Source: Neotabrizicola shimadae
Lineage (GTDB): Bacteria; Pseudomonadota; Alphaproteobacteria; Rhodobacterales; Rhodobacteraceae
Assembly (NCBI RefSeq): GCF_019623905.1
Contig: NZ_CP069370.1
Span: 2,232,001 to 2,296,000, forward strand
DNA length: 64,000 nucleotides
Direction of reading: 5' to 3'
The position numbers were made by a program, and so were the translations under genes. Each line of letters opens with the position of its first letter. Position 1 is the stretch's first letter. A model generated the notes under the pieces. It did not search any database. It had not been told where the DNA came from and saw only the letters and a list, made by a program, of their open reading frames with translations. Below are positions 23,305 through 64,000 of the stretch, one piece after another.

Positions 23305-23307
23305 CCG

Positions 23308-26254: not shown

Positions 26255-26255
26255 C

Positions 26256-35724: not shown

Positions 35725-35752
35725 ATCCCGGCACGTATGCGAAGGAGCCGCC

Positions 35753-37767: not shown

Positions 37768-37771
37768 CGGC

Positions 37772-38509: not shown

Positions 38510-38538
38510 CCTTTACCTGTCCGGTTGCCGGGTTCGGC

Positions 38539-38808: not shown

Positions 38809-38814
38809 GGGGGA

Positions 38815-39267: not shown

Positions 39268-39414
39268 GGGTCGTTCCTTTTGTCACCCGCGCCCTGCGGC
39301 CCCCGTTTCCGGGCGTTCCGGGGGCTGATGCCCCGCCTTCGGACAGCGCGCCCCTTGTGGAGGCGTCATTAAAACCGATATCCCGGCCACCCAAGAAGGG
39401 TGCCGGGACGCGGC

Positions 39415-39443
39415 CTTATGCGTCAGGCGCCCCGCCCTGTCAA
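39415..39443 (-). promoter_or_regulatory. Sigma-70-type promoter of rplU-rpmA
   Basis: Minus strand: -35 TTGACA at 39443-39438, a 17-bp spacer, and -10 CATAAG at 39420-39415. It predicts an rplU leader of about 140 nt containing the hairpin CCCGGCACCC...GGGTGGCCGGG. Spacing and the perfect -35 box support it. Control by the leader is unproven. Confidence 0.65.
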
Positions 39444-39479
39444 GCAGGCTTTGCCACCCCTCGCCCGAAGGCCCCGCCC

Positions 39480-40355
39480 ATGCCCCTGCCCCTGTCGCGC
39501 CGTGCCACGCTCGCGGGTCTCGCCACGCTCGCCCTGTCCCCGTCCCGCGCCGGGGCCAGCGGCGCGGGCGACCTCGCCTCGCTTCTGAGCGGCCACGAAT
39601 CCGCCCTCGGCGGCCGCATCGGGCTGGCCTGCCTCGATACTGGCACCGGCCGCCGGACCCTCTGGCGCGCGGAAGAACGCTTCCCGATGGCCAGCACCTT
39701 CAAGCTTCTCCTCGCCGCCGCCACCCTCGCCCGCATCGAAGCGGGGATCGAGCCCACCGACCGCGCCCTTCCGGTCCGGGCCGGCGACCCGGTGGGCCAC
39801 TCCCCCGTGACCGCCGCCCATGTCGGCGGCAGCCTGACGCTCACCCAACTCTGCGCCGCCACCGTGACCGAAAGCGACAACGGCGCCGCCAATCTCCTGC
39901 TTGACACGATGGGCGGCCCCGCGTGCCTGACGCTCTGGCTCCGCTCAACCGGCGATGACGTGACGAGGCTCGACCGCAACGAACCCGCCATGAGCGAGGC
40001 CACCCCCGGCGACCCGCGCGACACCACCACCCCGGAGGCGATGGCCGCAACACTGCAGCGCCTGCTTCTCGGCCCCGTGCTGTCCCCCGACCGACAGGCA
40101 CAACTGATTGGCTGGATGGAGGCCAGCCAGACCGGCCTCACCCGCCTCCGCGCCGGCCTCCCCTCCGGCTGGCGCGCGGGCGACAAGACGGGCACCGGCG
40201 GACATGGCAGCGTGAACGACGTGGCGATCCTCCATCCGCCCGGTCGGGCGCCGTGGATCCTTTGCCTCTACATGACGGAAACGACGGCGCCCCGCCCGGA
40301 CGCCGAGGCGGCGATGGCCGCCATCACGCGGCACCTGACCTCGGACAATCCTTAA
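39480..40355 (+). CDS. Class A beta-lactamase
   Basis: A 291-aa serine beta-lactamase. The active-site motif STFK is at S72, SDN at 132-134, the general-base Glu at E168 (RLDRNEPAM) and KTG at 236-238; all class A residues are present. The signal sequence begins PLSRRATLAGLATLAL, a twin-arginine type start, so export may go through Tat. It resembles chromosomal class A enzymes known in Rhodobacter. No adjacent AmpR-type regulator is found. The stop codon lies in a dispersed repeat. Confidence 0.92.
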   Translation: MPLPLSRRATLAGLATLALSPSRAGASGAGDLASLLSGHESALGGRIGLACLDTGTGRRTLWRAEERFPMASTFKLLLAAATLARIEAGIEPTDRALPVRAGDPVGHSPVTAAHVGGSLTLTQLCAATVTESDNGAANLLLDTMGGPACLTLWLRSTGDDVTRLDRNEPAMSEATPGDPRDTTTPEAMAATLQRLLLGPVLSPDRQAQLIGWMEASQTGLTRLRAGLPSGWRAGDKTGTGGHGSVNDVAILHPPGRAPWILCLYMTETTAPRPDAEAAMAAITRHLTSDNP

Positions 40356-40424
40356 GTCCAAGTTAATTCGCGCGCGCAAGCCGTTGATTTTGCTGTAATC
40401 GGCAAGGCGTCCGAGCTCGGACGC
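40351..40424 (-). repeat. Palindrome-tailed dispersed repeat, copy 2
   Basis: Starts CTTAAGTCCAAGTTAATTCG, continues through CAAGCC and TTGATT followed by 17 nt, and ends with GCGTCCGAGCTCGGACGC (40407-40424). The first five bases of the element include the beta-lactamase stop TAA. The palindrome ends 1 bp before the stop codon of the convergent DUF2177 gene. Confidence 0.92.
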
Positions 40425-40425
40425 C

Positions 40426-40827
40426 TCACCCGCCCGGCCGCAGCGCCCGCACAATGGCCACCCCGGCCCAGGCCGAAACCCCGGTCAGCACCGCTCCCCA
40501 GGTCAGGTCGGTGACCACCATCGAGACATGCCAGTCCCTCAGGATCGCATAGTTCGTCAGCTCATAGGTGCCATAGGCCATCGCCCCCAGCACCGCCCCC
40601 GGCACCAGAACCGCCCGCCCCTCGCGCAAGCCGGGCCAGGACACCAGCGCCACCAGACCCGCCACATAGCCCGCATAAAACACCAGCGCCGGCCCCCACC
40701 GCGGGCTCTCCAGCATCAGCCCCCCGATATGCGAGGCAAACAGCGGCTGCATCACGAAGGTCAGCATCACCGCATCAAGGGCCAGAAACACCACGGCGGT
40801 CACGACATACAACAGGATCAGGGTCAT
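40426..40827 (-). CDS. DUF2177-family membrane protein
   Basis: A 133-aa inner-membrane protein with four hydrophobic helices, matching the DUF2177 pattern (FLALDAVMLTFVMQPLF; GAVLGAMAYGTYELTNYAILRDW; VTDLTWGAVLTG). ATG at 40827 is chosen because GGAGG lies 6 nt upstream; GTG at 40830 is too close. Function unknown. Confidence 0.8.
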   Translation of the reverse strand: MTLILLYVVTAVVFLALDAVMLTFVMQPLFASHIGGLMLESPRWGPALVFYAGYVAGLVALVSWPGLREGRAVLVPGAVLGAMAYGTYELTNYAILRDWHVSMVVTDLTWGAVLTGVSAWAGVAIVRALRPGG

Positions 40828-47203: not shown

Positions 47204-48355
47204 ATGCCCGTCCTTCCCACCCTTGCCGCCGCCCGCCCCGCCGCCGTGGTCTTTGCCGCCATGGGCGTGCTCTGGGGCGGCTATGCCGCGGCGCTCCCCG
47301 ACATCAAGACCATGCTGGATGTCAGCGAAACCCAGCTTGGCCTTGTCCTGTTCATGACGCCGATCTCGGCGGTCATCGCCATGCTTCTGGCCCCGCGCAT
47401 CGGGGCCGCGCTTGGCCGCGTGGCGCTGCCTGTGGCCGCCGCGGCCATGGCGCTGGCTTTCGCCCTGCCCGGCCAGACCGCCAGCCTCGTGCTCTTTCCG
47501 CTGGCCATGCTCGCTTGCGGCGCGACCACGGGCTTGGCCGATGTGCTGATGAATGCCCGCGTCGCCACGCTGGAGACCGAGCGCAAGCTGCACCTGATGA
47601 ACCTCTGCCACGCGGCCTATTCCTTCGGCTATGCCGGGGGCGCGGTCGGCACCGGCGCCATGCGAGCGGCGGGCTGGCCGCCTTCGGCCGTCATGGCCTG
47701 CCTCGCTGGCGCGGCGCTCGTGATGGCGGCAATGTCACTGGAACGCGATGGCACGATCCACGGACTGCGCAAGCCCGGCGGGGCAAAGGGCGGCGGCCTT
47801 GGCCTGGTGCCCTTCATCGGCGGCGTCATCGTGCTCATCGCCTTCATGACGGAGAACGCAGCCGAAAACTGGTCGGCGCTGCATATCGAGACCAGCCTCG
47901 GCGCCGCCCCCGGCGCAGGCGCGCTTGGCCCCGCCGCGCTGGCCCTGACCATGGGCCTCGCCCGCCTGGCCGGTCAGGGCCTGTCGGGCCGCATCTCGGG
48001 CGCCGCACTCCTGGGCGGCGGCGCGGCGATCTCGGCCGCAGGTCTCATCATCGCCGCCGCCGCCACCAGCCCGGCCATGGCCTATGCCGGATTCATCGTC
48101 ATGGGCCTCGGCTCCTCGGTGATCGCGCCGACGGCCTTCTCGATGGTCGGCCGCGCCGCACCCGACAATGCCCGGGCCCGCGCCGTGGCCCGCGCCACGC
48201 TCTACGGCTATTTCGGCTATTTCTTCGGCCCGCCGCTCTTCGGCTTCCTTGCCGGAAGCGCCGGCCTGCGCGCCGCCTTCGTGCTGGCCGCCTGCCTCTT
48301 GCTGGCCGTGCCCTTCCTGGCCCGGCGCCTTGCATCGGATGCCGACAAGTCTTGA
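47204..48355 (+). CDS. MFS transporter
   Basis: A 383-aa membrane protein with about twelve hydrophobic segments. The gene is typical of short MFS sugar/fucose-like or drug permeases (MGVLWGGYAAALPDIKTMLDVSETQLG; LMNLCHAAYSFGYAGGAVGTGAM). No motif identifies the substrate. Its stop codon lies at the start of a dispersed repeat, and it converges on lldD. Confidence 0.82.
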   Translation: MPVLPTLAAARPAAVVFAAMGVLWGGYAAALPDIKTMLDVSETQLGLVLFMTPISAVIAMLLAPRIGAALGRVALPVAAAAMALAFALPGQTASLVLFPLAMLACGATTGLADVLMNARVATLETERKLHLMNLCHAAYSFGYAGGAVGTGAMRAAGWPPSAVMACLAGAALVMAAMSLERDGTIHGLRKPGGAKGGGLGLVPFIGGVIVLIAFMTENAAENWSALHIETSLGAAPGAGALGPAALALTMGLARLAGQGLSGRISGAALLGGGAAISAAGLIIAAAATSPAMAYAGFIVMGLGSSVIAPTAFSMVGRAAPDNARARAVARATLYGYFGYFFGPPLFGFLAGSAGLRAAFVLAACLLLAVPFLARRLASDADKS

Positions 48356-48423
48356 CGAAACGTTAATTCGATCCGTCAAGCCATTGATTTCATTGGCGCA
48401 GAAAAGCGTCCGAGCTCGGACGC
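48351..48423 (-). repeat. Palindrome-tailed dispersed repeat, copy 3
   Basis: CTTGACGAAACGTTAATTCG, then CAAGCC and TTGATT, then 16 nt and GCGTCCGAGCTCGGACGC (48406-48423). The palindrome is immediately next to the lldD stop codon (48424-48426). Read from lldD, the palindrome is followed by TTTTC, like an intrinsic terminator. Confidence 0.92.
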
Positions 48424-49587
48424 TCAGGCCCAGTCGCCCTCGAAGTCCTTGGGGACCAGAAGGTTGTGGCGGCCGATCTCGGTCACCTTCCGCTCCCCCA
48501 GAAGGGCCATGGTCACGTCCATCTCCTTGCGGATCACCTCCAGCGCCTTGGTCACGCCCGGTCCGCCCATGGCGCCCAGCCCGTGCACGAAGGCCCGCCC
48601 GATCATCGTGCCCTTGGCCCCAAGCGCCAGCGCCTTCAGCACGTCCTGCCCCGACCGGATGCCGCCATCCATCCAGACCTCGGTCTGGTCCCCCACCGCC
48701 CGCACCACCCGCGGCAGCATGGAAATCGACGACACCGCCCCGTCCAGTTGCCGCCCGCCGTGGTTCGACACCACAATGGCATCGGCCCCGAAATCGGCCG
48801 CCCTGCGGGCATCCTCCTCGTCCAGGATCCCCTTCAGAATGAACTTGCCGCCCCACTGGTCGCGGATGCGCGCCACCTTGCCCCAATCCAGCTTGGGATC
48901 GAACTGCTCGTTCGCCCAGGCCGTCAGGTCAGACAGCTTCTGCACCCCCTTCACATGGCCCACGATGTTGCGGAACTGCCGCCGCGGGGTCTGTGCCATG
49001 GCCAGCGACCAGGCGGGCTTGGTCGCCATGTTCAGGATGTTGGGAATGGTCAGCTTCGGCGGCGAGGTGAGCCCGTTCTTCAGGTCCTTGTGCCGCTGGC
49101 CGAGGATCTGCAGGTCCAGCGTCAGCACCAGCGCCGAACATTTCGCCTTCTTCGCCCGCTCGATGATCGCATCGACGAAATCTTCGTCCCGCATCACATA
49201 AAGCTGGAACCAGAACGGCTTGGAGGTATGAGCCGCCACGTCCTCGATCGAACAGATCGACATGGTGGACAGGGTGAAGGGCACGCCGAACTTTTCCGCC
49301 GCCCGCGCCGCGAGGATCTCGCCATCCGGCCACTGCATCCCGCAGCTGCCCACCGGGGCCAGAGCCACCGGCATCGCCACCGGAAAGCCCGCCATGGTGC
49401 TTTCCGTCGTGCGCCCCGTCATGTCCACCGCGACCCGCTGGCGGAACCTGAGCTTCCCGAAATCCGAGACGTTGTCGCGGAAGGTCTGTTCGGTGTAGCT
49501 GCCGCTCTCGCAGTAATCCCAGAACATCTTCGGCGTCCGCTTGCGGTGCAGCTTCTTCAGGTCGTCGATGCAGGTGATGACGGGCAC
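48424..49587 (-). CDS. lldD: FMN-dependent L-lactate/alpha-hydroxy-acid dehydrogenase
   Basis: A 387-aa flavoenzyme. GTG at 49587 is preceded by GGAGG at 7-nt spacing. FMN and active-site motifs are SNHGGRQLDGAVSS (catalytic His and Arg), VWMDGGIRSGQDVLKALALGAKGTMIGRAF and the N-terminal YCESGSYTEQTFRDN. It oxidises L-lactate or a related 2-hydroxy acid to the keto acid. The symbol is by closest family; other hydroxy acids are possible. Confidence 0.85.
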   Translation of the reverse strand: MPVITCIDDLKKLHRKRTPKMFWDYCESGSYTEQTFRDNVSDFGKLRFRQRVAVDMTGRTTESTMAGFPVAMPVALAPVGSCGMQWPDGEILAARAAEKFGVPFTLSTMSICSIEDVAAHTSKPFWFQLYVMRDEDFVDAIIERAKKAKCSALVLTLDLQILGQRHKDLKNGLTSPPKLTIPNILNMATKPAWSLAMAQTPRRQFRNIVGHVKGVQKLSDLTAWANEQFDPKLDWGKVARIRDQWGGKFILKGILDEEDARRAADFGADAIVVSNHGGRQLDGAVSSISMLPRVVRAVGDQTEVWMDGGIRSGQDVLKALALGAKGTMIGRAFVHGLGAMGGPGVTKALEVIRKEMDVTMALLGERKVTEIGRHNLLVPKDFEGDWA

Positions 49588-51483: not shown

Positions 51484-52581
51484 TCAGCCGTTGAACAGGA
51501 AGTGCAGCACGTCGCCGTCCTTGACCTCATAGGTCTTGCCCTCGACGCGGAACTTGCCCGCCTCCTTGGCCCCGGCCTCGCCGTTGCCGGCAATGTAGTC
51601 GTCATAGGCCACGGTCTCGGCCCGGATGAAGCCCTTCTCGAAATCGCCGTGGATCACGCCCGCCGCCTGCGGGGCCAGCGTCCCCTTCGTGATCGTCCAG
51701 GCGCGCGCCTCTTTCGGCCCCACGGTGAAATAGGTCTGCAACCCCAGAAGCTCGTAGCCCGCACGGATCAGACGGTCGAGCCCGGCCTCGTGCAGCCCCA
51801 TCTCCTCCAGGAACATCGCCGCCTCGTCGTCGGGCAGCTGCGCAAGCTCCTCCTCGATCCGCGCCGAAATCACCACCGAGGCCGCGCCCTGCGCCTTCGC
51901 CATCGCCGCCACCCGGTCCGACTGGCTGTTGCCCGCCGCGGCCTTGGCCTCCTCGACATTGCAGACGTAAAGCACCGGCTTCGCGGTCAGAAGCTGCAGC
52001 AGACGCCACGCCCGCGCGTCCTCCTCGCTCACCGTCACCGTGCGGGCCGGCTTGCCCGCCTCCAGCGCCGCCTGGGCCAGCGCCAGCAGGCGGTCCTGGT
52101 CCAGGCTGTCCTTGTCCCCGCCCTTCAGCTTGCGCGCCAGGTTCGCCCGCCGCCGCTCGATCGACTCCAGATCGGCCAGCATCAGCTCGGTCTCGATGGT
52201 CTCGGCATCGGCCACCGGGTCGATGCGCCCCTCGACATGGGTGATGTCCCCGTCCTCGAAACAGCGCAGCACATGGGCGATGGCGTCACATTCGCGGATG
52301 TTGGCCAGGAACTGGTTGCCCAGCCCCTCGCCCTTCGACGCGCCGCGCACCAGGCCCGCGATATCGACAAAGGTCATGCGCGTTGGGATGATCTGCTTCG
52401 ACCCGGCGATGGCAGCCAGCTTTTCCAGCCGTGCATCCGGCACCGCCACCTCGCCCACATTGGGCTCGATGGTGCAGAACGGAAAATTCGCAGCCTGCGC
52501 GGCAGCGGTGCGCGTCAGCGCGTTGAACAGGGTGGACTTGCCGACATTCGGCAGCCCGACGATGCCCATCTTGAAACCCAT
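51484..52581 (-). CDS. ychF: Redox-regulated ATPase YchF/OLA1
   Basis: A 365-aa Obg-family protein. The G1 motif is [18 protein letters not shown] and the G3 is [19 protein letters not shown]. The altered G4 YVCNVEE (NxxE instead of NKxD) explains ATP rather than GTP preference. A C-terminal TGS domain ends at DVLHFLFNG. Conserved ribosome-associated stress factor. Confidence 0.97.
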
Positions 52582-52653
52582 GCCGCATACTCCCGTCGCT
52601 GACGGGCCGCTCATAAGCCGCAGCCCGCGCAGGATCAAGCTGGCGCCCGCCCA

Positions 52654-53349
52654 TTACCCCGGCAGGCGGCCCGGCCGCACATCCTCCGCCACCTGGTCGG
52701 TCAACTCGCGGATCAGCTTGCGCCGGATCGCGGCAGGAAAATCCGACTGGCGCGGCGCCACCTCGACAAAGGCGCCGGGGCCGCGCAACAGCTCGCGGCT
52801 GAAATACTGCGGCAACAGGCTTTCATGCTCGCCGATGGCCAGGCCGTTCACGGTGATCCCGGTCCAGTCGGCCCGCGCATAGGACCTGGCGGGCGGCGGA
52901 CCCTCGTTGTTCTGTCCGTCGCCCGAGACATCCAGAACCAAACGCCGGCAGTCGGGCGCGCGGCGCATCAGGTCCAGCCCATAATCCAGCGCCGCGCCAA
53001 GCGCCGTCAGATGGCGTTCCGTGGGCCGGGTCAGCGCACGCATCCGGGTGGCCAGCGCATCCAGCCCGGCCTCGTCCTGAACAATAACCCAGTCCTCGAC
53101 CATGGCCTGATCGGCGACCCCGCTCCACTCGTAAACCGCAAAAGCCACCGGGGCGTCGCCCGACAGGAAGGCGCGGCGCACCGCCGGATCGGTCAGGGCA
53201 TCGGCCAGCCCTTCAGCCTGCACGCGGTAATCCCGCCCGTCCACCGAGCGCGACACATCCATCGCCAGCGCCAGTGCAATCCGGCACTCGCTCGCTGCCG
53301 CAGGAGCGGCAGCGCCAAGCAGCAGGAAAAGGGCGGACAGGCAGCGCAT
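52654..53349 (-). CDS. DUF1194-family secreted VWA-like protein
   Basis: A 231-aa protein with a Sec signal peptide (cleavage near AAAS-ECR). A von Willebrand A-like fold follows, with a MIDAS-type start ([16 protein letters not shown]) and [17 protein letters not shown] at 53349 is preceded by GGGAGG. Typical of DUF1194 proteins; role unknown, probably periplasmic metal-dependent binding. Confidence 0.85.
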
Positions 53350-53392
53350 CGGCACCTCCCGCCCGCCAGACTACACGGGCACGGGGCCTGCG

Positions 53393-54901
53393 TCAGCCTC
53401 TGGCAAGCTCGGCCGCGAAGAAGGGCTCGGGACTGTCCACCTCGACCAGCCGCTTGCCCTCGATCAGCCAGAACCGGTTGGCGATGGCGCGCACGAAGCC
53501 CCGGTCGTGGCTGACCACCAGGCAGGTCGCCTGGGGCGCGGTCAGCTCCGATTCCAGCGCCTCCTGCCCCTCGATGTCCAGATGGTTGGTCGGCTCGTCC
53601 AGCAGGTGGAAGTTCGGCCGCATCAGCCGCAGCATCAGCATGGCCAGCCGCGCCTTCTGCCCGCCCGACAGGCTCGCCAGCGGCTTGCCCTGACGGTCGC
53701 TGCGGATGCCCGCCCCCGCCAGAAGGCTGCGCGTCGCCGCATCGCCCTGGCCAAAGGCCGACACCAGATCGAAAGGCGTGCCCTTCGGCGGCAACATCGT
53801 CAGCGCCTGGTCGGCATGACCCAGCACCAGCGAGGGCGCGGCGCGGATGGCTCCCGCTTCCCCCCGGCAGGCCGCCAGCACGGCCTCGACCAGCCGGGTC
53901 TTGCCCGCGCCGTTGCCGCCAAGCAGCACGATCCGGTCGCCCGGCTCGATCCATTTCTCACCGGTGCGATACAGAGGCCGCCCGTCCGGCGCAGAGATGG
54001 CCGCATCGGCCAGCGTGACAAGCGCCTTGGCATGGCTGCCGGAATGGGTCAGCCGGATCGCCCCGCTCGATCCCTCGCGGTGCACGGCACGGGCCGCCGC
54101 CTCGATCTTCTCGGCGCGCTCGGTCAACTGCTTGGTCTTGACGACCAGCAGGTCAGACCCCGAGTTGATGCCGATGTTCTTCAGCTTCGCTGCCTGCCGG
54201 CGCAGTTGCTCGGCCCGCGCCAGGTCATTGGCCTGGGCACGGGCATCCGCCGCATCCGCCTCGTCCAGCGCGGCGCGGGCGCGCGAATAGGGCAGCGCAA
54301 AGCTGCGGCTCGCCACGGGGCGCAGGAACAAGGTGGAACCGGTCGCCTCGTCCAGAAAGGCGCGGTCATGGCTCGCCACGATCACCGCCACGTCGCGCGG
54401 CAGGTCGGCCAGCCAGCGCGTCAACACGCCGATACGGGCCAGGTCCAGGTGGTTGGTCGGCTCATCCAGCAGGTAAAGGTCCGGCTCGCCCACCGCCGCC
54501 GCCGCCAGAAGCGCCGTGCGTTGCCAGCCGCCCGACAGTGCCGCAAAGGTCGTGTCGCGCAACTCCCACGGCACCGCCAGTTCGTCCAGCACCACATCCG
54601 CCCGCCAGTCCATCGACCCATCCGCCGGTAGGCCACGCGCGACGGCATCGCGCAGCGACAGCCCGGCAAGCGCGGGATCGGGGTCCTGGCTCACATGAGC
54701 CACGGTCAGGCCGCGCGCTCTGGTGATCTGGCCCGAAGACGGCTCGATCTCGCCCGCGATCAGCTTCAGAAGCGAGGATTTGCCCCGGCCATTGGCCGCC
54801 ACCAGGCCAAGCCGGGCACCGGGGACAAGGGAAAAGGTCAGGTCGGAAAACAGCGGCTCGGCCAGGACCAGGCCAACGGAACGCAGCGACAAGACGGACA
54901 T
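53393..54901 (-). CDS. ABC-F family ATPase
   Basis: A 502-aa soluble protein with two ATP-binding domains. The first has Walker A VAANGRGKSS, signature LSGGWQRTALLAAA and DEPTNHLD. The second has LGGNGAGKT, LSGGQKARLAM and DEPTNHLD. A linker of about 70 residues between them is rich in basic residues (QLRRQAAKLKNIGINSG). ABC-F proteins act on the ribosome in translation or antibiotic protection. ATG at 54901 is preferred over ATG at 54949. The gap to suhB downstream holds no coding region. Confidence 0.85.
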   Translation of the reverse strand: MSVLSLRSVGLVLAEPLFSDLTFSLVPGARLGLVAANGRGKSSLLKLIAGEIEPSSGQITRARGLTVAHVSQDPDPALAGLSLRDAVARGLPADGSMDWRADVVLDELAVPWELRDTTFAALSGGWQRTALLAAAAVGEPDLYLLDEPTNHLDLARIGVLTRWLADLPRDVAVIVASHDRAFLDEATGSTLFLRPVASRSFALPYSRARAALDEADAADARAQANDLARAEQLRRQAAKLKNIGINSGSDLLVVKTKQLTERAEKIEAAARAVHREGSSGAIRLTHSGSHAKALVTLADAAISAPDGRPLYRTGEKWIEPGDRIVLLGGNGAGKTRLVEAVLAACRGEAGAIRAAPSLVLGHADQALTMLPPKGTPFDLVSAFGQGDAATRSLLAGAGIRSDRQGKPLASLSGGQKARLAMLMLRLMRPNFHLLDEPTNHLDIEGQEALESELTAPQATCLVVSHDRGFVRAIANRFWLIEGKRLVEVDSPEPFFAAELARG

Positions 54902-55363
54902 GGGACAACCTTCATATGACGGGAAAAGCGCCACCGGGGCGCGGGTCATGGGCTGTCCGAATATGCGACCGGCCAGCCCTGCTTCAGGAAAGCAGGGCGG
55001 AAACAGGGCCAGGTCGGCGCTCGCGGGTGAAGGCGTGTTTCATGGCTCCATCCTGCCACCGCCGTCGCCCCCCTGCAACTCCTCCCGGCTTCTTCTTTGC
55101 CCAAATACTCCGGGGGGAGTCGCCGCCCCGGCGGCGACGGGGGCGGGACGCCCCCCTGCCCTTGCGCCAGCCCTTCGCAGGCGCAAGGGCGCAACGACTT
55201 GCGCGGCCCCGGCCGCGCGCATCCTAACAAACGGTAAATGCGCGAAGGCAACCCATTGATTTTACTTGCATCGTTCAGGCGTCCGAGCTCGGACGCCCCT
55301 GCCCCCTTCCCTTCCGGCCCCGTCTCGGCTAAGGGGTCGGCCTCACCCGATCCGGAGCCCGCC
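54902..55363. other. 462-bp non-coding region with three strong hairpins and repeat copy 4
   Basis: No gene is evident between the divergent ABC-F and suhB starts. After a stretch resembling a common Rhodobacteraceae intergenic sequence (TTTGCCCAAATACTCCGGGGG, 55097-55117), three hairpins follow in 100 bp. These are 55119-55138 (9-bp stem GTCGCCGCC, 2-nt loop), 55159-55189 (10-bp stem CCCTTGCGCC, 11-nt loop) and 55201-55218 (8-bp stem GCGCGGCC, 2-nt loop). The dispersed repeat comes next. Confidence 0.75.
55224..55296 (-). repeat. Palindrome-tailed dispersed repeat, copy 4
   Basis: CTAACAAACGGTAAATGCG, then CAACCCATTGATT, then 17 nt and GCGTCCGAGCTCGGACGC (55279-55296). It is the only copy not next to a stop codon. 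It sits upstream of suhB and downstream of a hairpin cluster, pointing the same way as copies 1-3. Confidence 0.9.
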
Positions 55364-56152
55364 ATGGCCGCCAGCGCCAACCTGAACCTGATGATCAAGG
55401 CCGCCCGCAAGGCCGGCCGCTCCCTCGTCAAGGATTTCCGCGAGGTCGAGAACCTTCAGGTCTCGTCCAAGGGCCCCGGCGACTTCGTGTCCCGTGCCGA
55501 CCGCGAGGCCGAGCGGATCATCAAGGAGGAACTCCTCGGCGCCCGCCCGACCTACGGCTGGCTGGGCGAGGAGACCGGCGAGCAGGACGGCGCCGACCCG
55601 ACCCGCCGCTGGATCGTGGACCCGCTCGACGGCACCACCAACTTCCTGCACGGGATGCCCCACTGGGCCGTCTCGATCGCCCTGGAACACAAGGGCGAGA
55701 TCGTCTCGGGTGTGGTCTTCGACGCCGCCAAGGACGAACTCTTCTGGGCCGAGAAGGGCGCCGGCGCCTGGATGAACGACCGCCGCCTGCGGGTCTCGGG
55801 TCGCCGCCACCTGCACGAGGCGGTCTTTGCCACCGGCATCCCCTTCGGCGCCAAGTCCACCCTGCCCGCGATGATGCAGGACCTCGCCCGGCTGATGCCG
55901 GCCTGCGCCGGTGTCCGCCGGTGGGGCGCCGCCGCGCTGGACCTGGCCTGGGTCGCCGCCGGCCGCTTCGACGGCTTCTGGGAGCGGGAGTTGCACACCT
56001 GGGACATCGCGGCCGGGCTGATCCTGGTCAAGGAGGCCGGCGGCTTCGTCTCTGGCATCCGCGACGGGCAGGACCCGTTGGAGTCGGGCTCGATCCTGGC
56101 CTGCAACGACGCGCTTTTCTCGACCTTCCAGAAGACCCTGCGCGGCGAGTGA
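55364..56152 (+). CDS. suhB: Inositol-1-monophosphatase family protein
   Basis: A 262-aa Mg-dependent phosphatase. Metal motifs are GEETGEQDG, WIVDPLDGTTNFLHGMPHWAVSIA and the C-terminal WDIAAGLILVKEAGG. SuhB hydrolyses inositol phosphates and, in other bacteria, also assists rRNA transcription. ATG at 55364 follows CCGGAGCC. It leads into the his genes, 63 bp before hisB. A histidinol-phosphatase role is possible in this setting but unproven. Confidence 0.88.
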   Translation: MAASANLNLMIKAARKAGRSLVKDFREVENLQVSSKGPGDFVSRADREAERIIKEELLGARPTYGWLGEETGEQDGADPTRRWIVDPLDGTTNFLHGMPHWAVSIALEHKGEIVSGVVFDAAKDELFWAEKGAGAWMNDRRLRVSGRRHLHEAVFATGIPFGAKSTLPAMMQDLARLMPACAGVRRWGAAALDLAWVAAGRFDGFWERELHTWDIAAGLILVKEAGGFVSGIRDGQDPLESGSILACNDALFSTFQKTLRGE

Positions 56153-56215
56153 CCCTGCGGCTTGCCCTGCGCCGGGGCGCCGCCCTATAAGGCCCCGTCA
56201 GCGTCAGGAGCCGCC

Positions 56216-56803
56216 ATGCGCGAAGCGAGCGTCACCCGCACCACCGCCGAGACCTCGGTCGAGGTCGCCGTCAACCTGGACGGCACCGGCCGGTATGACT
56301 GCCAGACCGGTGTGGGCTTCTTCGACCACATGCTGGACCAGCTGGCGCGCCATTCGCTGATCGACCTGACCATCCGCGCCAAGGGCGACACCCATATCGA
56401 CGACCACCACACGGTCGAGGATGTGGGCATCACGCTGGGTCAGGCCCTGACGAAAGCCCTGGGCGACAAGCGGGGCATTCGCCGGTACGGCGCGTTCCGG
56501 CTGGCGATGGACGATGCCCAGGTGGCCTGCGCGCTGGATTTGTCGGCGCGGCCTTATCTTGTTTGGAACCTGACCTTCCCCGCGGGGAAGATCGGCAGCT
56601 TCGACACCGAGCTGGTGCGGGAGTTCTTCCAGGCCCTGTCCACCCATGGCGGCATCACGCTTCATGTGGACCTGATCCACGGAATCAACGCCCACCACAT
56701 CGCCGAGGCCGCCTTCAAGGCGGTCGCACGGTCACTGCGCGAGGCGGTGGAACCCGATCCGCGTATGGCGGGCGTGCTACCCTCGACCAAGGGCGCGCTG
56801 TGA
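56216..56803 (+). CDS. hisB: Imidazoleglycerol-phosphate dehydratase
   Basis: A 195-aa Mn-dependent enzyme of histidine synthesis. Repeated metal motifs are [24 protein letters not shown] and [12 protein letters not shown], the duplicated structure of the family. ATG at 56216 follows GTCAGGAGCC. It is the dehydratase only, not the bifunctional HisNB of enterobacteria. A 136-bp AT-rich gap follows. Confidence 0.97.
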
Positions 56804-56939
56804 CGGCGGCGGGTGAGGTGTGCAGGGTTTTCGGATGTGCGCACCGAGCCGAAGACGAAGTTAAGTCTATGATATCAGTATATAAAATTTGGATTCGAGT
56901 CTGCGCACCCGTCTTGCCGGCCCGATCCGGGGTGGCAAG
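56804..56939. other. AT-rich gap between hisB and hisH
   Basis: The centre (56860-56895) is strongly AT-rich for this genome and contains TGATATCA and TATATAAAATTT. Two adjacent GANTC sites follow (GATTC 56892, GAGTC 56897). CTTGCC/GGCAAG pairing just before the hisH start could form a hairpin over its leader. No DnaA box was found. The strand-composition switch of the window lies close to this gap. Confidence 0.5.
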
Positions 56940-57581
56940 ATGAGCCTTACGGTTCTGGTCGACTACGACAGCGGCAATCTTCACTCGGCCGAGAAAGCCT
57001 TTCAGCGCATGGCACTGGAGGTCGGCGCGGGCGAAGTGCTGGTCACATCACGCCCCGAGGATGTGGCCCGCGCCGACCGCGTGGTGCTGCCCGGCGACGG
57101 GGCCTTTCCGGCCTGCCGTCGCGCGCTTGGCGCCTATGGCGGGCTGGCCGAAGCGATCGAAGAGGCCGTGACCGTCCGCGCCGTGCCGTTCCTTGGCATC
57201 TGCGTGGGGATGCAGATGCTGGCGACCTGGGGGCGCGAATACGAGGATACCGCCGGTTTCGGCTGGATCGGGGGTGAAGTGGTGCGCATCACGCCGGCCG
57301 ACCCGGCGCTGAAAGTGCCCCACATGGGCTGGAACGACCTGGTGATCGACCGGGCTCATCCGGTGCTGGACGGCATCGCCACGGGCGACCATGCCTATTT
57401 CGTGCATTCCTATCACTTCCGGGTGGACGACCCGGCGCATCTTCTGGCCCATGCCGACTATGCCGGCCCCATCACCGCCATCGTCGGGCGCGACACCATC
57501 GTCGGCACCCAGTTTCACCCCGAGAAGAGCCAGGCCACCGGCTTGCGGCTGATCGGCAATTTCCTGCGCTGGCGACCCTGA
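56940..57581 (+). CDS. hisH: Imidazole glycerol phosphate synthase, glutamine amidotransferase subunit
   Basis: A 213-aa class I amidotransferase. The nucleophile Cys is in FLGICVGMQMLATWG, and the His/Glu pair is in QFHPEKSQ. It releases ammonia for HisF. ATG at 56940 lies at the end of a GGCAAG hairpin arm, with no strong ribosome site visible; translation may depend on that structure. Confidence 0.96.
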   Translation: MSLTVLVDYDSGNLHSAEKAFQRMALEVGAGEVLVTSRPEDVARADRVVLPGDGAFPACRRALGAYGGLAEAIEEAVTVRAVPFLGICVGMQMLATWGREYEDTAGFGWIGGEVVRITPADPALKVPHMGWNDLVIDRAHPVLDGIATGDHAYFVHSYHFRVDDPAHLLAHADYAGPITAIVGRDTIVGTQFHPEKSQATGLRLIGNFLRWRP

Positions 57582-57690
57582 CCGCCCGGCGTGGCACCTG
57601 CGGCAAAGCGGTTCAAGAGACTTCAGCCTAGACCGGCGGCGCACGGCGGGCGCCCAAGCGCCCGGCCCTGCCAAACCAGGAGACGAGTAC

Positions 57691-58182
57691 ATGAAACGCA
57701 TCCTTCTGCCGCTGCTACTGGCCACTGTCGCCGCTCCGGCATTCGCCCTCGACCTGACCGAATGGGGCAAGGAAGGCGACTGGGTCATCCTCATCGACCC
57801 GAACCATGACAATAACTGCTTGGCCCAGGTGTCCTATTCCGACGGCAGCCTTCTGCGCGTGGGCTTCCGCGAAAAGGGCAAGGAAGGCATCCTGGCGGTG
57901 GTCAACCCCGCCTGGGACTTCAAGAAGGACGACAAGTACCTTCTCAACTACTCGGTGGACGGTGGCGCCGGTATTGATGCCGAATCGAAGGGCGTCGCTG
58001 TGGGCGAGATGAAGGGCGTCGAAGTTCCGTTCAAGGATCCGGCCGTGCTGTACGCTCTGGTCAAGGGCAACAGCCTGGCGCTGACCTATGAAGGCAACAA
58101 GCTGGCAGACGTGTCGCTGGCCGGCAGCGCCGCGGCGCTGGAAAAGGCCGCGGTCTGCGAGCTGGAACAGCATCCGGGCTGA
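57691..58182 (+). CDS. Secreted hypothetical protein
   Basis: A 163-aa protein with a Sec signal peptide (MKRILLPLLLATVAAPAFA-LD). The mature part has two cysteines, an early DNNC and a late VCELE, that could form a disulfide. It reads as a compact beta-rich domain (VILIDPNHDNNCLAQVSY; AVVNPAWDFKKDDKYLL). I do not recognise the family. RBS GGAGACG. A strong terminator follows. Confidence 0.65.
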   Translation: MKRILLPLLLATVAAPAFALDLTEWGKEGDWVILIDPNHDNNCLAQVSYSDGSLLRVGFREKGKEGILAVVNPAWDFKKDDKYLLNYSVDGGAGIDAESKGVAVGEMKGVEVPFKDPAVLYALVKGNSLALTYEGNKLADVSLAGSAAALEKAAVCELEQHPG

Positions 58183-58202
58183 GCGCGACCCAAGGCTTCA
58201 GG

Positions 58203-58230
58203 GGGGCGCCTTCGGGCGCCCCTTTCGTTT
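58203..58230 (+). terminator. Intrinsic terminator after the secreted-protein gene
   Basis: GGGGCGCC-TTCG-GGCGCCCC with an ultra-stable UUCG loop, followed by TTTCGTTT. It ends 10 bp before the convergent DUF2147 stop codon. Confidence 0.9.
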
Positions 58231-58240
58231 GCGCGCAGGG

Positions 58241-58630
58241 TTATTGCACCCGCGTCCAGGTGCCACCGTCGCGGCAGATCATCAGAACGCAGCCGGACAC
58301 TGAAAGCTTGTTGCCGCTCAGCTGCATCTTGGCGTCATAGGTCTTGTCGCGGTCCGGGCTCCAGACCTTGCCGTCGCCATAGGCACCGTCGCCTTCCGGT
58401 ATCATGTCCCAGACGATGCGCTTGCCGATGTTGGGCGAGGAAATCTCCTTGCCCGCTCCGTCGAAGGCCTTTTCCAGCTTGCCGCAGAAGGCAGGTCCGC
58501 AGGACGTGATGCGTATCAGGCCGGTGTTGCCGTTGTCGTCGGGCTTGGTACGCCACAGCCCTTCCACCGGATCGGCCAGAGCCGCGCCGGCGGACAGCAT
58601 CAGAATCATCGCCGATGTCAGGAACTTCAT
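58241..58630 (-). CDS. DUF2147-family secreted protein
   Basis: A 129-aa protein with a Sec signal peptide (ends near GAALA-DPV). DUF2147 features are [30 protein letters not shown] and the closing [16 protein letters not shown], with four Cys. Probably periplasmic; function unknown. ATG at 58630. Confidence 0.85.
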
Positions 58631-58776
58631 GTGATCCTCCCTCTTCCGGGCCGCATCATCCGGCTGAAGGGCGGGGCCGGGCAAGTCTGACGCTGGGTCA
58701 CGACTGCGGTTACCTGTCGTCTTGGCATCGGCGGATGGTCGTGGCAATGGAATGGCGACCAGCCTTGGGGGGCATC

Positions 58777-59493
58777 ATGATCCTGTATCCGGCCATCGAC
58801 CTGAAGGACGGCAAATGCGTGCGCCTGCTGCGCGGCGACATGGCGGCCGCCACCGTGTTCGGCGAGGACCCGGCGGCCCAGGCCGCAGCCTTCGAGGCGG
58901 CGGGGTGCGAGTGGTTGCATCTCGTGGACCTGGATGGCGCCTTTGCCGGGCACCCGGTGAATGGCGCGGCAGTCGAGGCGATCCTTGCCCGCGTCTCCGT
59001 GCCCTGCCAGCTTGGCGGCGGCATCCGCAACCTTGCCACCATCGGGATGTGGCTGGAAAAGGGGCTATCTCGCGTCATTCTGGGCTCGGTCGCGGTGGAC
59101 AAGCCCGAACTGGTGCGCGAGGCCTGCAGCAGCTTCCCCGGCAAGATCGCCGTGGGGATCGACGCCCGCAAGGGCCGGGTCGCCACCCATGGCTGGGCGG
59201 ACGAGACCGAAACGATGGCGGTGGATCTTGCCCGCAGCTTCGAGGATGCGGGGGTGGCGGCGATCATCTACACCGACATCGACCGCGACGGCGCGATGCA
59301 GGGCCCGAACATCGAAGCCACCGTGGCGCTGGCACAGGCCGTGTCCATCCCCGTGATTGCCTCGGGCGGGGTGTCGCGGCTGGAGGATCTGCTGGCCCTG
59401 CGCGATTCCGGCGTGATCGCGGGCGCGATCTCGGGCCGGGCGCTTTATGACGGCGCGCTGGATTTGCGCGGGGCGCTGGCGGCGCTGCGGTAG
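58777..59493 (+). CDS. hisA: ProFAR isomerase (HisA)
   Basis: A 238-aa TIM-barrel isomerase. Catalytic Asp residues are in [14 protein letters not shown] and [15 protein letters not shown]. It converts ProFAR to PRFAR, the substrate of HisHF. Its last 49 bases overlap the 3' end of the convergent membrane-protein gene. No trpF activity is implied, since trpA is present separately and trpF is outside the window. Confidence 0.96.
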
Positions 59494-60392
59494 GCCCGCC
59501 ACAGAAGCCAGAGCCACAGGCCAAGCCCGGCGGGCGCGGTGATGGCCAGCACGATCAGGTTCGTGGGGATCGGCTCTTCGCTCGACCAGAGCGCGGCGGC
59601 AACGGGCGCGGCGATCAGCGGCAGGGCCATGCCAAGGGCGTGGCGCCAGGCCGGGGCGGCGGGTCCGAGGCTTGCGACCTGTCCCCTCCCCAGGCGGAAC
59701 ATGGACCAGGCCGTGACCAGGGCCATGACCGGACCGGCCAGCCTTTGCGGCGCGGGGGCCAGCGCCGACTGCACCAGCCATATCAGAAGCACCAGCATCG
59801 GGGCTGCCCACAGCACGGGACGTGGCGGGAGGCGCAGCGGTTGCAGCCGGTCCAGCGCGATCTGCGCGGCGACGGCCAGCGCGGCAGCGGCCCCCAGGTA
59901 GACGAGGCTGGGCAGAGGGCCGGTCAAGGCAAGCCCCGGCCGCTCGGTGACCCAGTAGCCGCCCCAGAAGCCGAACCCCAGGCCGGATAGGACGAGAACG
60001 GCGATCTGGCGCCAGAGCGGGCCGGCGGCGGCCCATCTTGACGCAGCGAAGACGATCCCCGCCGTCAGCAGGCTGTGCCAGGCCAGCGGCGTCCAGACCA
60101 GCTGTACCGGGAAGGCATCGTACATGGTCGAGACCACCGCGCCTTCGACGGAAATCCCCATCAATGCCCCGCCCAGGATGACGCCCCGCCAGCCGCCGCA
60201 GCCGCTGGCGAGCACGACCGAGAGCCCGGTGGCGGCGCAGAGCGCGTAGACGAGCACGGTCAGCAGCGCCTGTCCCGCGACCTGCAGGGCCGGCAGGCCC
60301 GCGGGCGGCACCGTCCAGAACAGCGCCTCGGACCCGTAGAACCCGATGACCCCAAGCGACAGCGAGGCGGCGAGGAAGCGAAGGCTGTGCAT
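59445..60392 (-). CDS. Multi-spanning membrane protein of unknown function
   Basis: A 315-aa hydrophobic protein (about nine helices) starting at the ATG at 60392 (GGTGGAGCCC upstream). Helix-rich stretches include [20 protein letters not shown] and [20 protein letters not shown]. It lies between hisA and hisF on the opposite strand. The end overlaps hisA by 49 bp, so the two mRNAs share complementary 3' ends. I recognise no family. Confidence 0.65.
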
Positions 60393-60520
60393 GGGCTCCA
60401 CCGGTGACGACCGCGACCAACCTGTCACGCGGGCCCGTCCGTGCATAGCCGGCGGTGGGGCGGCTTGTCATCGGCCGGCGGATCGGGCTAACAGGAACCG
60501 CCCGGCGCAAAGGCCCGCCC

Positions 60521-61282
60521 ATGCTGAAGACCCGCATCATCCCCTGTCTGGACGTGGCCGATGGCCGCGTGGTGAAGGGCGTGAACTTCGTGAACCTGAT
60601 CGACGCCGGCGATCCGGTGGAAGCGGCCCGCGCCTATGACGCGGCGGGGGCGGACGAGCTGTGTTTCCTGGACATCCATGCCACGCATGAAAACAGGGGC
60701 ACGATGTTCGACCTGGTCACGCGGACGGCGGAGCAGTGCTTCATGCCGCTGACGGTGGGCGGCGGGGTCAGGACGCCCGAGGATGTGCGGGCGCTGCTGC
60801 TGGCGGGGGCGGACAAGGTCAGCTTCAACTCGGCCGCGGTGGCGAACCCGGATGTGGTGGCCGAGGCGGCGGACCGGTTCGGCAGCCAGTGCATCGTGGT
60901 GGCCCTGGATGCCAAGACGGTGGCGCCGGGGCGGTGGGAGATCTTCACCCATGGGGGCCGCAAGCCCACCGGGATCGACGCGGTGGAATTTGCCCGCACG
61001 GTGGCGGCCAGGGGGGCGGGCGAGATCCTGCTGACCTCGATGGATCGCGACGGCACCAAGCAGGGGTTCAACATCCCGCTGACCCGGGCGATTGCCGATG
61101 CGGTGGCGATCCCGGTGATTGCCAGCGGCGGGGTGGGAAACCTGGACCACCTGGTCGAGGGCGTGCTGGAGGGCCATGCCTCGGCGGTGCTGGCGGCCTC
61201 GATCTTCCACTTCGGGACCTACACCATCGGGGAGGCCAAGGCGCGGATGGCGGAGGCGGGCATTCCCGTGCGGCTGTCATGA
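60521..61282 (+). CDS. hisF: Imidazole glycerol phosphate synthase cyclase subunit
   Basis: A 253-aa TIM-barrel synthase partner of HisH. Catalytic Asp residues are in [15 protein letters not shown] and VALDAKT; the closing [27 protein letters not shown] is typical. ATG at 60521. It overlaps hisE by 4 bp. Confidence 0.97.
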
Positions 61283-61587
61283 GCGCGCTGGAGCGGCTGG
61301 CGGCGACCGTCGAGGCGCGGCGGGGGGCGGATCCGGAAACGTCCTGGACTGCCAAGCTCTTGGCCAAGGGGCCGGAGAAATGTGCCGAGAAGTTCGGCGA
61401 GGAGGCGGTCGAGGCGATCATCGAGGCGGTGAAGGGGGACCGGGCGCGGCTGACCTCGGAGGCGGCGGATGTGCTGTACCACCTGTTGGTGATGCTGGCC
61501 TCCCGGGGGGTGACGCTGGCCGAGGTCGAGGCCGAACTGGCCCGGCGCGAGGGCACCTCGGGGATCGAGGAAAAGGCCTCGCGCTGA
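61279..61587 (+). CDS. hisE: Phosphoribosyl-ATP pyrophosphatase
   Basis: A 102-aa MazG-fold pyrophosphatase. The metal motif [34 protein letters not shown] contains the conserved Glu/Asp residues (EE...EAADVLYH). It catalyses the second step of histidine synthesis. The ATG overlaps the hisF stop (ATGA). The stop codon is 1 bp from the palindrome of repeat copy 5. Confidence 0.95.
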
Positions 61588-61588
61588 G

Positions 61589-61663
61589 GCGTCCGAGCTC
61601 GGACGCTTTTCGCAACCAATGAATTCAATGAGTTGCGGCTCGGACTTCATGAATCGTTAAGGA
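61589..61663 (+). repeat. Palindrome-tailed dispersed repeat, copy 5 (inverted)
   Basis: Begins with GCGTCCGAGCTCGGACGC (61589-61606), then TTTTC, 16 nt and ATTCAATGAGTTG, ending in ATCGTTAAGG. It is the reverse orientation of copies 1-4. The palindrome starts right after the hisE stop and is followed by a T-run, so it may end hisE transcription. Confidence 0.9.
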
Positions 61664-61785
61664 TTCGCCGCGCCACTGCCCCTTCGGAAGCCGGAAGCCG
61701 ACGCTGCGTCACTGCTGTTGCGGGGTATCCAAGCCCGCCCGACGTCGTATCAAGGCGGCGAGGCATCCGGAGCGGAGCGGGTGGC

Positions 61786-63180
61786 ATGGACAGGGACGGC
61801 ATCGTGGCACGGGTGGCGGCGCTGCGCGCGGGGAATGACGCGCGACGCCTGACCTTTGGCATGGCCGAACGGCGCGCGGCGCTGGAGCGGCTGGCAGCGG
61901 CGGTCAAGGCCGAGGAAGCGACGATCCTTGCGGCGCTACGCGAGGATTTCGGCAAGCCGGCCCCCGAGACGGTGCTGACCGAGATCCTGCCGGTGCTGCA
62001 GGAGATCGGCCATGCGCGGCGGCACCTGCGGGCCTGGATGGCGCCGCGGCGGGTGGGCGGGTCGCTGAACACCCTTGGCACAAGTGCACGCATCGTGCCG
62101 CAGGCAAGGGGCACCTGCCTGATCATCGCGCCCTGGAACTACCCTTTCCTTCTGGCGATTGGTCCGCTGATCTCGGCCTTGGCCGCGGGCAACGCGGCGG
62201 TGATCAAGCCGTCGGAGATGACGCCCGCGACCTCGGCCCTGATCGCCCGGCTGGTGGCCGGTGCGTTTCCGCCCGATCTGGTTACGGTGATCGAAGGCGG
62301 GCGGGAGGTGGCAGAGGTCTTGCTGGACCAGCCCTTCGACCATGTGTTCTTCACCGGCAGCCCGGCAGTCGGGCGGATCGTCATGGCGGCGGCGGCGAAG
62401 CACCTGGCCTCGGTCACGCTGGAACTGGGCGGCAAGTCGCCCTGCATCGTGGGACCGGGGGCGGATCTTGACCGGGCGGCGGCCTGGATTGCCTTCGGCA
62501 AGTTCGCCAATGCCGGGCAGACCTGCATCGCGCCGGATCATCTGTTCGTGCACGAGACGGTGAAGGACGCCTTTCTGGGCAAGCTGCGCGCGCGGATTTC
62601 GCGGGCCTATGGCGCCGGCGCCAGCAGCCCGCATCTGGCGCGGATCGTGAACGATGGCCATGCCGCCCGGTTGGCGGGGCTGGTGCGCGATGCGGTTGCC
62701 AAGGGCGCGCGGGTGGTGCTGGACGGCGGGCAAGACGGGCGGGCGATGGGGCCGACCCTGCTCGAGGCGGTGACGCCCGAGATGGAGATCGACCGCGAGG
62801 AAATCTTCGGCCCGGTGCTGCCGGTGATGACCTACCGCGACGAGGCCGAGGTAATCGCCCGCATCAACGCGCGACCGAAGCCGTTGGCGCTGTACGTCTT
62901 CGACCGCGACCGGGCGCGGGTGGACCGGGTGGTGGGGGCCACCACATCGGGCAGCGTGGGGGTGAACCTGACGGTGGTGCAGTTCAGCCATGCCGGCCTG
63001 CCCTTTGGCGGCGTGGGCAATTCGGGCCTTGGCGCGGCGCATGGGGAGCACGGCTTTCGCGCCTTCAGCCATGAGCGCGCGGTGCTGGCAAACCGCTTTT
63101 CCGCGCTGCCTGCGGTGTTTCCGCCCTATACGGCGGGCGTGAAACGGTTGATCGGTCTGGCGCGGCGGATGCTGGGGTAG
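61786..63180 (+). CDS. Aldehyde dehydrogenase (coniferyl-aldehyde-dehydrogenase-like)
   Basis: A 464-aa ALDH of the shorter, membrane-tail type. Motifs are LIIAPWNYPFLLAIGPLISALAAGNAAVIKPSEM, VTLELGGKSPCIVGPGADL and the catalytic Cys in KFANAGQTCIAPDHLFVH. ATG at 61786 follows AGCGGAGCGG. A hydrophobic C-terminal end (YTAGVKRLIGLARRMLG) may reach the membrane. It is followed 3 bp later by a GMC oxidoreductase, so the pair may oxidise an alcohol to the acid. Confidence 0.88.
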   Translation: MDRDGIVARVAALRAGNDARRLTFGMAERRAALERLAAAVKAEEATILAALREDFGKPAPETVLTEILPVLQEIGHARRHLRAWMAPRRVGGSLNTLGTSARIVPQARGTCLIIAPWNYPFLLAIGPLISALAAGNAAVIKPSEMTPATSALIARLVAGAFPPDLVTVIEGGREVAEVLLDQPFDHVFFTGSPAVGRIVMAAAAKHLASVTLELGGKSPCIVGPGADLDRAAAWIAFGKFANAGQTCIAPDHLFVHETVKDAFLGKLRARISRAYGAGASSPHLARIVNDGHAARLAGLVRDAVAKGARVVLDGGQDGRAMGPTLLEAVTPEMEIDREEIFGPVLPVMTYRDEAEVIARINARPKPLALYVFDRDRARVDRVVGATTSGSVGVNLTVVQFSHAGLPFGGVGNSGLGAAHGEHGFRAFSHERAVLANRFSALPAVFPPYTAGVKRLIGLARRMLG

Positions 63181-63183
63181 GTG

Positions 63184-64000
63184 ATGGAGCATGATATCAT
63201 CATCGTTGGCGCGGGCTCGGCGGGCTGCGTTCTGGCGAACCGGCTGTCGGCCGATCCGACGCGGCGGGTCTGCCTGATCGAGGCGGGGCCCAAGGACCGC
63301 AACCCGCTGATCCACATCCCGCTTGGGCTGGCGCTTCTGGCACGGAGCCGACGGGTGAACTGGGGCTATGCGACCGAGCCGGAGCCGGCGCTGGCGGGGC
63401 GGCGGCTTTATTGGCCGCGGGGCATGACGCTTGGCGGGTCAAGTTCGATCAACGCGATGATCTACATGCGGGGGCATCCGGAGGACTACCGGGGCTGGGG
63501 CCGCGCGGCAGGGCCGATGTGGGACTGGCCGCGGATGCGCGAGCTGTTCCTGCGGCTGGAAGACAATGGCGCGATAGCCGATGGGCATCATGGGGTCGGC
63601 GGGCCACTTTCGGTGCAGGACTTGCGGGCGCCCAATCCCCTGAGCCGGGCTTTCGTGGAAGCGGCGGGGGCGGTGGGGTTGCCGGTGCTGGGCGAGTTCA
63701 ATGGCGCGGCGCAGGAGGGCGCGGCGCTCTACCAGGTGACGCAGAAAAACGGCCAAAGGTTCAGCGCGGCGCGGGCCTTCTTGGAGCCAGTGCGCGGGCG
63801 GCGGAATCTGGAGGTGCTCACCGGGGCGCAGGTGGAACGGGTGCTGTTCGAGGGCCGCCGCGCCGTGGCGGTGCGGCTGGCGGGGCGCGACTTGCGGCTG
63901 AGGCCGGGCGGCGAGGTGGTGCTCTGCGGGGGGGCGGTGAACTCGCCCCAGCTTCTGATGCTGTCGGGCATCGGGCCGGGGGCGGAATTGAGCCGCATGG
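63184..64000 (+). CDS. GMC-family oxidoreductase (3' truncated)
   Basis: FAD-dependent alcohol dehydrogenase or oxidase; 272 codons are in the window and the gene continues past its end. The flavin motif DIIIVGAGSAGCVLANRL is at the N terminus. GMC signature 1 is seen near YWPRGMTLGGSSSINAMIYMRG, and signature 2 begins at GGAVNSPQLLMLSGIGP. The GTG at 63181 or the ATG at 63184 is the start. Choline-dehydrogenase-like; substrate unknown. Confidence 0.88.
   Translation, partial: MEHDIIIVGAGSAGCVLANRLSADPTRRVCLIEAGPKDRNPLIHIPLGLALLARSRRVNWGYATEPEPALAGRRLYWPRGMTLGGSSSINAMIYMRGHPEDYRGWGRAAGPMWDWPRMRELFLRLEDNGAIADGHHGVGGPLSVQDLRAPNPLSRAFVEAAGAVGLPVLGEFNGAAQEGAALYQVTQKNGQRFSAARAFLEPVRGRRNLEVLTGAQVERVLFEGRRAVAVRLAGRDLRLRPGGEVVLCGGAVNSPQLLMLSGIGPGAELSRM

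Follow-up and report, generated by a model that had tools for sequence, protein, structure and literature searches.

In Alphaproteobacteria the region of the chromosomal replication origin (oriC) has a familiar layout, with parAB, gidAB, trmE, rho, hem genes and maf lying together. In the available part of PMC6699656, oriC in Rhodobacteraceae is placed by its nearness to the minimum of GC disparity, by a local GC minimum and by its nearness to parAB. In the accessible portion of PMC9836097, 62.6-66.8% of the genes in four alphaproteobacterial orders are reported to follow the typical GC skew, and local reversals of its sign are discussed as traces of inversion. Here we report the analysis of a skew switch, from a C-rich to a G-rich plus strand, at 55-59 kb of a 64-kb stretch of Neotabrizicola shimadae. 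This stretch, below called the window, occupies positions 2,232,001-2,296,000 of C1, a contig of 4,154,010 bp in an assembly of five contigs and 4,392,453 bases; positions given without a contig are window positions. The flip in strand composition is real, and it is an ordinary old skew reversal, of a kind read elsewhere as an inversion trace. With a probability of roughly 0.55, we take the switch to be the left edge of a 17.8-kb patch that is the relict of an old chromosomal rearrangement. The patch resembles the reversals discussed in PMC9836097 in having the sign opposite to its arm in both gene directions and in lying on a rearranged chromosome, apparently of the same order. It differs in that several relatives have its genes in the same orientation to parS, so that more than one flip is needed.

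Three features describe the strand composition of the window:

1-55900: C-rich plus strand, with the sign expected for this arm if the origin lies at ~3.52 Mb
55901-64000: part of the G-rich patch inside the window; the patch runs on to 73,701
56412: minimum of the cumulative GC skew within the 64-kb window

Overall, the GC skew is -0.132 over 1-55,000 and +0.122 over 59,001-64,000, and both the cumulative minimum and the change-point obtained by segmentation (55,901) fall at 55-59 kb, where the first-pass annotation had placed a switch in polarity. C exceeds G in 732 of the 916 lines of 60 bases across 1-55,000, and each of the 101 overlapping 5-kb blocks in this range has a skew of -0.092 or lower. 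Across 59,001-64,000, 63 of 83 lines have more G than C, and the interval 55,001-59,000 is balanced, with 28 of 66 lines C-rich and 34 of 66 G-rich. The observed step in skew was never reached in 20,000 permutations of 1-kb blocks, and the five 60-base counts of G and C quoted in that annotation are all exact. The excess of C on the left had been said to hold whatever the gene direction, and this is borne out by third codon positions, whose plus-strand skew is -0.317 in 26 plus-strand genes and -0.174 in 28 minus-strand genes. The excess of G claimed for the right stands in total skew and in line counts, while its extent is short, the skew being negative again from 73.7 kb. Inside the window this side is only weakly tested for gene direction, as 55-64 kb has nine plus genes (third-position skew +0.072) and just two minus genes (+0.034, with a total skew of 0.000). 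Over 56.2-73.7 kb the values are +0.070 in 11 plus genes and +0.149 in five minus genes; for both ranges, start positions were corrected and a spurious frame opposite hisE was left out. Because third positions are positive in plus and minus genes alike, the asymmetry over this patch is of replication type.

Segmentation of 224 contiguous kb bounds the patch on both sides. It extends over 55,901-73,701 with a skew of +0.077, its right edge lying 9.7 kb beyond the window, and is followed by a skew of -0.069 to 87,301. Farther to the right, positive skew up to 96.7 kb gives way to a negative stretch ending at 112.0 kb, then to a positive one ending at 142.0 kb, and from there to values near zero as far as 164 kb. 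To the left of the window, -38.0 to -29.6 kb is neutral and -7.4 to -5.1 kb forms a short positive stretch. The patch is one of several reversed patches in the 224 kb, and its sign is opposite to that of its arm in genes of both directions (third positions, 56.2-73.7 kb).

The switch has the right polarity for a replication origin and shows up as a clear local minimum in the cumulative curve; the first-pass annotation had proposed such an origin at 55-59 kb, where the global skew minimum would then be sought. We sampled C1 in 87 stretches, which together with the window make up 14.5% of it, and interpolated the cumulative curve. The sampled minimum lies near 3.13 Mb, with the curve roughly flat to ~3.8 Mb, and the maximum at 1.2-1.5 Mb. 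The best ParB match on C1 is at 3,514,541, and two parS-like sites, with up to two mismatches allowed, are found at 3,516,542 and 3,518,462. The difference in skew between the arms was taken from 84 samples, 80 of them short stretches and the other four the opening 5 kb of longer ones. It amounts to -0.003 if the window is made the origin and to +0.054 if parS is, and reaches 0.062 at best, at 3.30 Mb. The region 3.514-3.525 Mb holds parB, parA, mnmG, mnmE, rho and hemJ together with divergent maf, aroE and dnaQ, where the matches of parA, hemJ and maf fall short of the curated cut-offs and each of the other genes has a match above one. Two DnaA boxes lie in the hemJ-maf spacer (by our own frame calls), one exact, at 3,522,047, and one with a single mismatch, at 3,521,797; further one-mismatch boxes are at 3,524,499 and 3,525,102, the counts there being without a shuffle control. 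This genome has its own cluster of the alphaproteobacterial oriC type, with parS and DnaA boxes, ~1.23 Mb from the window, whereas the window has a histidine (his) operon ~41 kb from hemE, both more than 1.1 Mb from parS. The exact DnaA box TTATCCACA does not occur in the 64-kb window, which has two one-mismatch boxes against 2.28 expected, none of them at 54-60 kb. Since the sampled skew minimum, the position of the marker genes, parS and DnaA boxes, and the arm differences all point away from the window, we reject the reading as chromosomal replication origin, which the return of the skew to negative values at 73.7 kb also contradicts, and leave it next to no probability.

A dif-like pattern gave no match, so the terminus is merely assumed to lie opposite parS, at ~1.44 Mb. 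The expected sign is found in 24 of 42 samples of the left arm and 27 of 42 of the right arm, a share in line with the 62.6-66.8% of genes given in the accessible portion of PMC9836097. The unexpected sign occurs in 18 of 42 left-arm samples, and wrong-sign values beyond 0.03 in 15 of 42 on the left arm and 8 of 42 on the right. As for the assembly itself, C1 starts at dnaA (G000:C1:1-2352, G000 being this genome), ~632 kb from the origin markers, and its position 1 is no guide to the origin. Another gene at a great distance from parS is hemE (2.33 Mb).

The genes around the switch are as follows, where the sister genome is the one described below them:

51484-52593, minus: gene of the YchF GTPase; in the sister genome inverted, ~5 kb from the SuhB-like gene
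52654-53355, minus: DUF1194 protein; third-position skew -0.14, versus +0.34 in the sister orthologue
53393-54949, minus: protein with two ABC-transporter ATPase stretches, putatively ABC-F-like; third-position skew -0.13, versus +0.21 in the sister genome
55361-56152, plus: inositol monophosphatase (SuhB-like), left of the junction; predicted start codon
56153-56215: junction between the SuhB-like gene and hisB, common to the sister genome
56216-56803, plus: hisB, imidazoleglycerol-phosphate dehydratase
56937-57581, plus: hisH-like gene, named by its place and by the hisH annotation under its match in a Paracoccus plasmid record
57691-58182, plus: protein of 163 amino acids (aa), no Pfam match
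58241-58645, minus: DUF2147 protein; frame open to 58,747, predicted start
58771-59493, plus: hisA
60521-61282, plus: hisF
61279-61587, plus: hisE (phosphoribosyl-ATP pyrophosphohydrolase domain)

Among the relatives searched, only the sister genome, G001, belongs to the same genus. The interval 52,683-88,681 is collinear in it, save for gaps of up to ~2 kb. Of the 14 gene frames compared over 56.2-71.4 kb, the spurious one opposite hisE included, 13 agree in the sign of their total skew, and the sign is kept at ~79-88% nucleotide identity between orthologues. The patch is old, and not an assembly error, since G001 has equal gene order and the same sign in 13 of the 14 frames. We consider it very improbable that the switch is such an error, or that it marks the border of a plasmid or secondary replicon which has its own origin and became integrated here. 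Breaks in skew can flag misassembly, according to the accessible portion of PMC9836097, and ParB-family genes are present on the contigs C2, C3 and C4 too; against this, the separate assembly of G001 matches this one in gene order to the right of 52,683 and, for the most part, in skew, and C1 has one DnaA-family match and three ParB-family matches, all of which are far from 2.29 Mb. The his locus of G001 has identical coordinates in the record CP059262.1. The label of this record, Exiguobacterium profundum, looks wrong, as the chromosome is closely related to the present alphaproteobacterium-like genome.

For the making of the patch we infer a past inversion rather than the composition of the genes themselves. 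The patch would have gained its G-rich plus strand while lying the other way round relative to replication; a rearrangement in the ancestor of the genus would then have given it the orientation that it has now, without its composition having relaxed so far. The comparison with other genera bears on this point. A hisB match is found in 34 family relatives of other genera, and 20 kb around hisB were read in 12 of them. We searched for parS in 11 genomes (none in two of them, and on another contig than hisB in two), and worked out the hisB-to-parS orientation by hand with contigs taken as circular. The results show that hisB points towards parS in G000, G001 and the relatives G004, G010 and G014, and away from it in G035. 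The pooled third-position skew of the his genes is -0.056 in G004, -0.284 in G010 and -0.282 in G014, against +0.001 here and -0.021 in G001. Because these three relatives have the same orientation of hisB to parS and a negative his skew, we read the patch as having formerly lain the other way round in the genus ancestor. The distance from hisB to parS is 1.23 Mb here and 0.95-1.38 Mb in G001, G004, G010, G014 and G035, and only ~26-30 kb in two distant members of the class, G045 and G050.

A number of observations weigh against an inversion as the origin of the patch. The segment is not inverted relative to parS when compared with G001, G004, G010 and G014, and because the orientation of hisB to parS is alike in these and G000, one inversion is insufficient; a past double flip of the his segment would still be compatible with these orientations. 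The his genes of G035 are negative too (-0.160, two genes), despite hisB pointing away from parS. No G000/G001 breakpoint lies inside 55-59 kb, and skew change-points are not enriched at the breakpoints between the two genomes (3 of 15 within 2 kb, p = 0.46). The edge is also gradual: third positions of plus genes are negative from hisB to hisA and positive first at hisF, at 60.5 kb, and this turn lies inside the his operon, 4 kb to the right of the junction between the SuhB-like gene and hisB. The junction itself says little, because the left neighbour of hisB varies among the relatives read. Within flanks of 9-10 kb, none of 11 other-genus relatives has an ABC-F-like, SuhB-like, YchF, DUF1194 or TrpA gene left of hisB, G014 with its 1.3 kb not being counted. 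To the left of hisB the DUF1194, ABC-F-like and SuhB-like genes have a positive skew in G001 and a negative one in G000, and the first two show this opposite sign with an unchanged orientation to the his genes. In addition, the rise in skew from hisB to hisE recurs in part in several relatives, and 11 of the 12 other-genus relatives, all except G021 (+0.041), have a negative skew at the pooled third positions of the his genes, whatever the orientation where it is known. This looks as if the negative his skew in these relatives were set by the composition of the genes.

Gene composition as the cause is the main rival, and a serious one. The patch would then be a regional compositional feature formed without inversion, with codon choice, amino-acid content or some other local asymmetry producing peaks of positive or negative skew, an explanation that we hold to be possible but short of probable. 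Besides the recurrence of the rise and of the negative sign in relatives, it is favoured by the orthologues of G001, which keep their sign at the identity given above. It is also favoured by the accessible portion of PMC9836097, where, next to the share of genes of typical skew given above, a clustering of core genes in GC-skew peaks is reported and, for Rhodobacterales, a correlation between skew and codon choice. On the other side, plus and minus genes agree in third-position sign both in the patch and in the negative stretch to its left, which is unexpected under gene-directed selection, and the DUF1194 and ABC-F-like genes differ in sign between sister species of the same gene order. The edge of a rearrangement, which the first-pass annotation had named as its alternative in the form of an inversion boundary, remains the best reading, although the event would be old and no sister-genome breakpoint marks it in 55-59 kb.

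Around the patch, the gene order is shown to change fast. The window from 33 to 52.7 kb corresponds to four places in G001 (1.004-1.009, 1.169-1.177 and 3.002-3.005 Mb, with the YchF gene, in inverted orientation, at 1.168 Mb as the fourth), and ten G000/G001 breakpoints are listed in 224 kb of G000, gaps of a few kb inside blocks being counted as insertions or deletions. Half of these breakpoints bring in a second subject, a palindromic repeat of ~84 bp, which is a more interesting by-product than the skew switch itself. Dispersed short palindromic repeats of bacteria include repetitive extragenic palindromes and bacterial interspersed mosaic elements (REP/BIME), miniature inverted-repeat transposable elements (MITEs) and uptake-sequence terminators. 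The present repeat is like these in being palindromic at one end, in having many copies and in standing often directly after stop codons. It is unlike them in that its exact 18-bp palindrome occurs only in the two genomes of this genus, with 148 copies in G000 and 127 in G001, and is absent from the other 392 of 394 family genomes examined. In 32 aligned copies (34 profile hits minus one duplicate and one partial) the palindrome is nearly invariant and the mean column identity is 78%. The copies in the window are:

20624-20705, plus: repeat copy at a G000/G001 synteny breakpoint
40343-40426, plus: repeat copy at a synteny breakpoint
48344-48424, plus: repeat copy at a synteny breakpoint
55224-55297, plus: repeat copy in the spacer of the ABC-F-like and SuhB-like genes, where there is no breakpoint; the skew change-point is ~0.6 kb away
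61587-61669, minus: repeat copy abutting the hisE stop codon

The repeat often stands at gene ends. Among 40 palindromes, taken from most of the stretches examined of G000 and G001, 25 lie within 15 nt of a stop codon that closes a frame of 80 or more open codons; of 5,000 random positions, 12% do so. When four copies were folded as RNA in the sense of the gene, a strong hairpin comes first in all, followed by four U in two of them, and the folding z is near -3 in three of the four and -0.9 in the fourth. Many copies, for example 40343-40426, also have TTAA-N7-TTAA, which we take to resemble the CtrA box of Alphaproteobacteria. Neither the plasmid collection nor Rfam has a match to the repeat. 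In a literature search on intergenic palindromes and rearranged genomes in Rhodobacteraceae, in which the letters of the repeat themselves were not searched in print, none of the papers listed (10 of 14) describes it in its title or at the start of its abstract. Clean insertions of the repeat were not upheld, as unrelated G001 sequence stands at 61.6 and 122.2 kb and the repeat is in both genomes at 83.2 kb. At 55.2 kb the matching spacer of G001 is without the palindrome and possibly carries a decayed copy, and the copy at the hisE stop codon was not found at the corresponding place in G001. No target duplication was seen at the sites compared (55.2, 61.6, 83.2 and 122.2 kb).

With 11 copies in the 224 kb, five of the ten breakpoints lie within 300 bp of the centre of a copy (rotation p = 0.0016); at other distances the counts are four of ten within 150 bp (p = 0.0007) and five of ten within 1 kb (p = 0.010). 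These p-values are optimistic, the breakpoints having been listed after the association was noticed and the null being a random position rather than ordinary gene ends. From the side of G001, five of 15 block ends, judged by eye, have a copy within ~150 bp, one of which is a weak partial. Skew change-points lie within 2 kb of repeats in 5 of 15 cases (p = 0.10), and the change from negative to positive at 112.0 kb adjoins both a breakpoint (112,107) and a repeat copy (centre 111,887). A 19.8-kb block, 20624-40426, has direct copies of the element at both ends; in G001 it is found as a 14.4-kb block (1.0036-1.0180 Mb), which likewise ends in copies on either side. It may be imagined that this genus-restricted element spreads and serves as a recombination substrate which shuffles gene blocks, the skew mosaic being a record of rearrangement driven by the repeat, but we regard this as unlikely. 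Long repeats, of over 800 bp, enable homologous recombination according to the accessible portion of PMC9836097, and a length of ~84 bp counts against the idea. The repeat may be a cause of the rearrangements or a mere marker of gene ends.

Besides these, other features of the window and genome may be mentioned. The hisH-like gene has no NCBIfam match at 1e-60, and in a search of genome contigs the 163-aa protein has relatives at two loci, CP059262.1 and one Rhodobacter metagenome-assembled genome. Paracoccus records are at the top of the plasmid-collection matches of the window. At 25419-32173, beside a FIST-domain gene, there are three long plus-strand frames (657, 398 and 865 aa) with no Pfam match at 1e-8. 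The tRNA and Rfam scans of the window gave nothing, and a search for small-subunit ribosomal RNA in this genome, rated 99.89% complete, gave no match; the gene may be missing from the sequence.

On the whole, a false origin call is removed by this analysis: on chromosomes such as this one, a window of 64 kb is unable to place the origin by skew. In addition, the repeat may help to explain the large differences in gene order between the two species of the genus.

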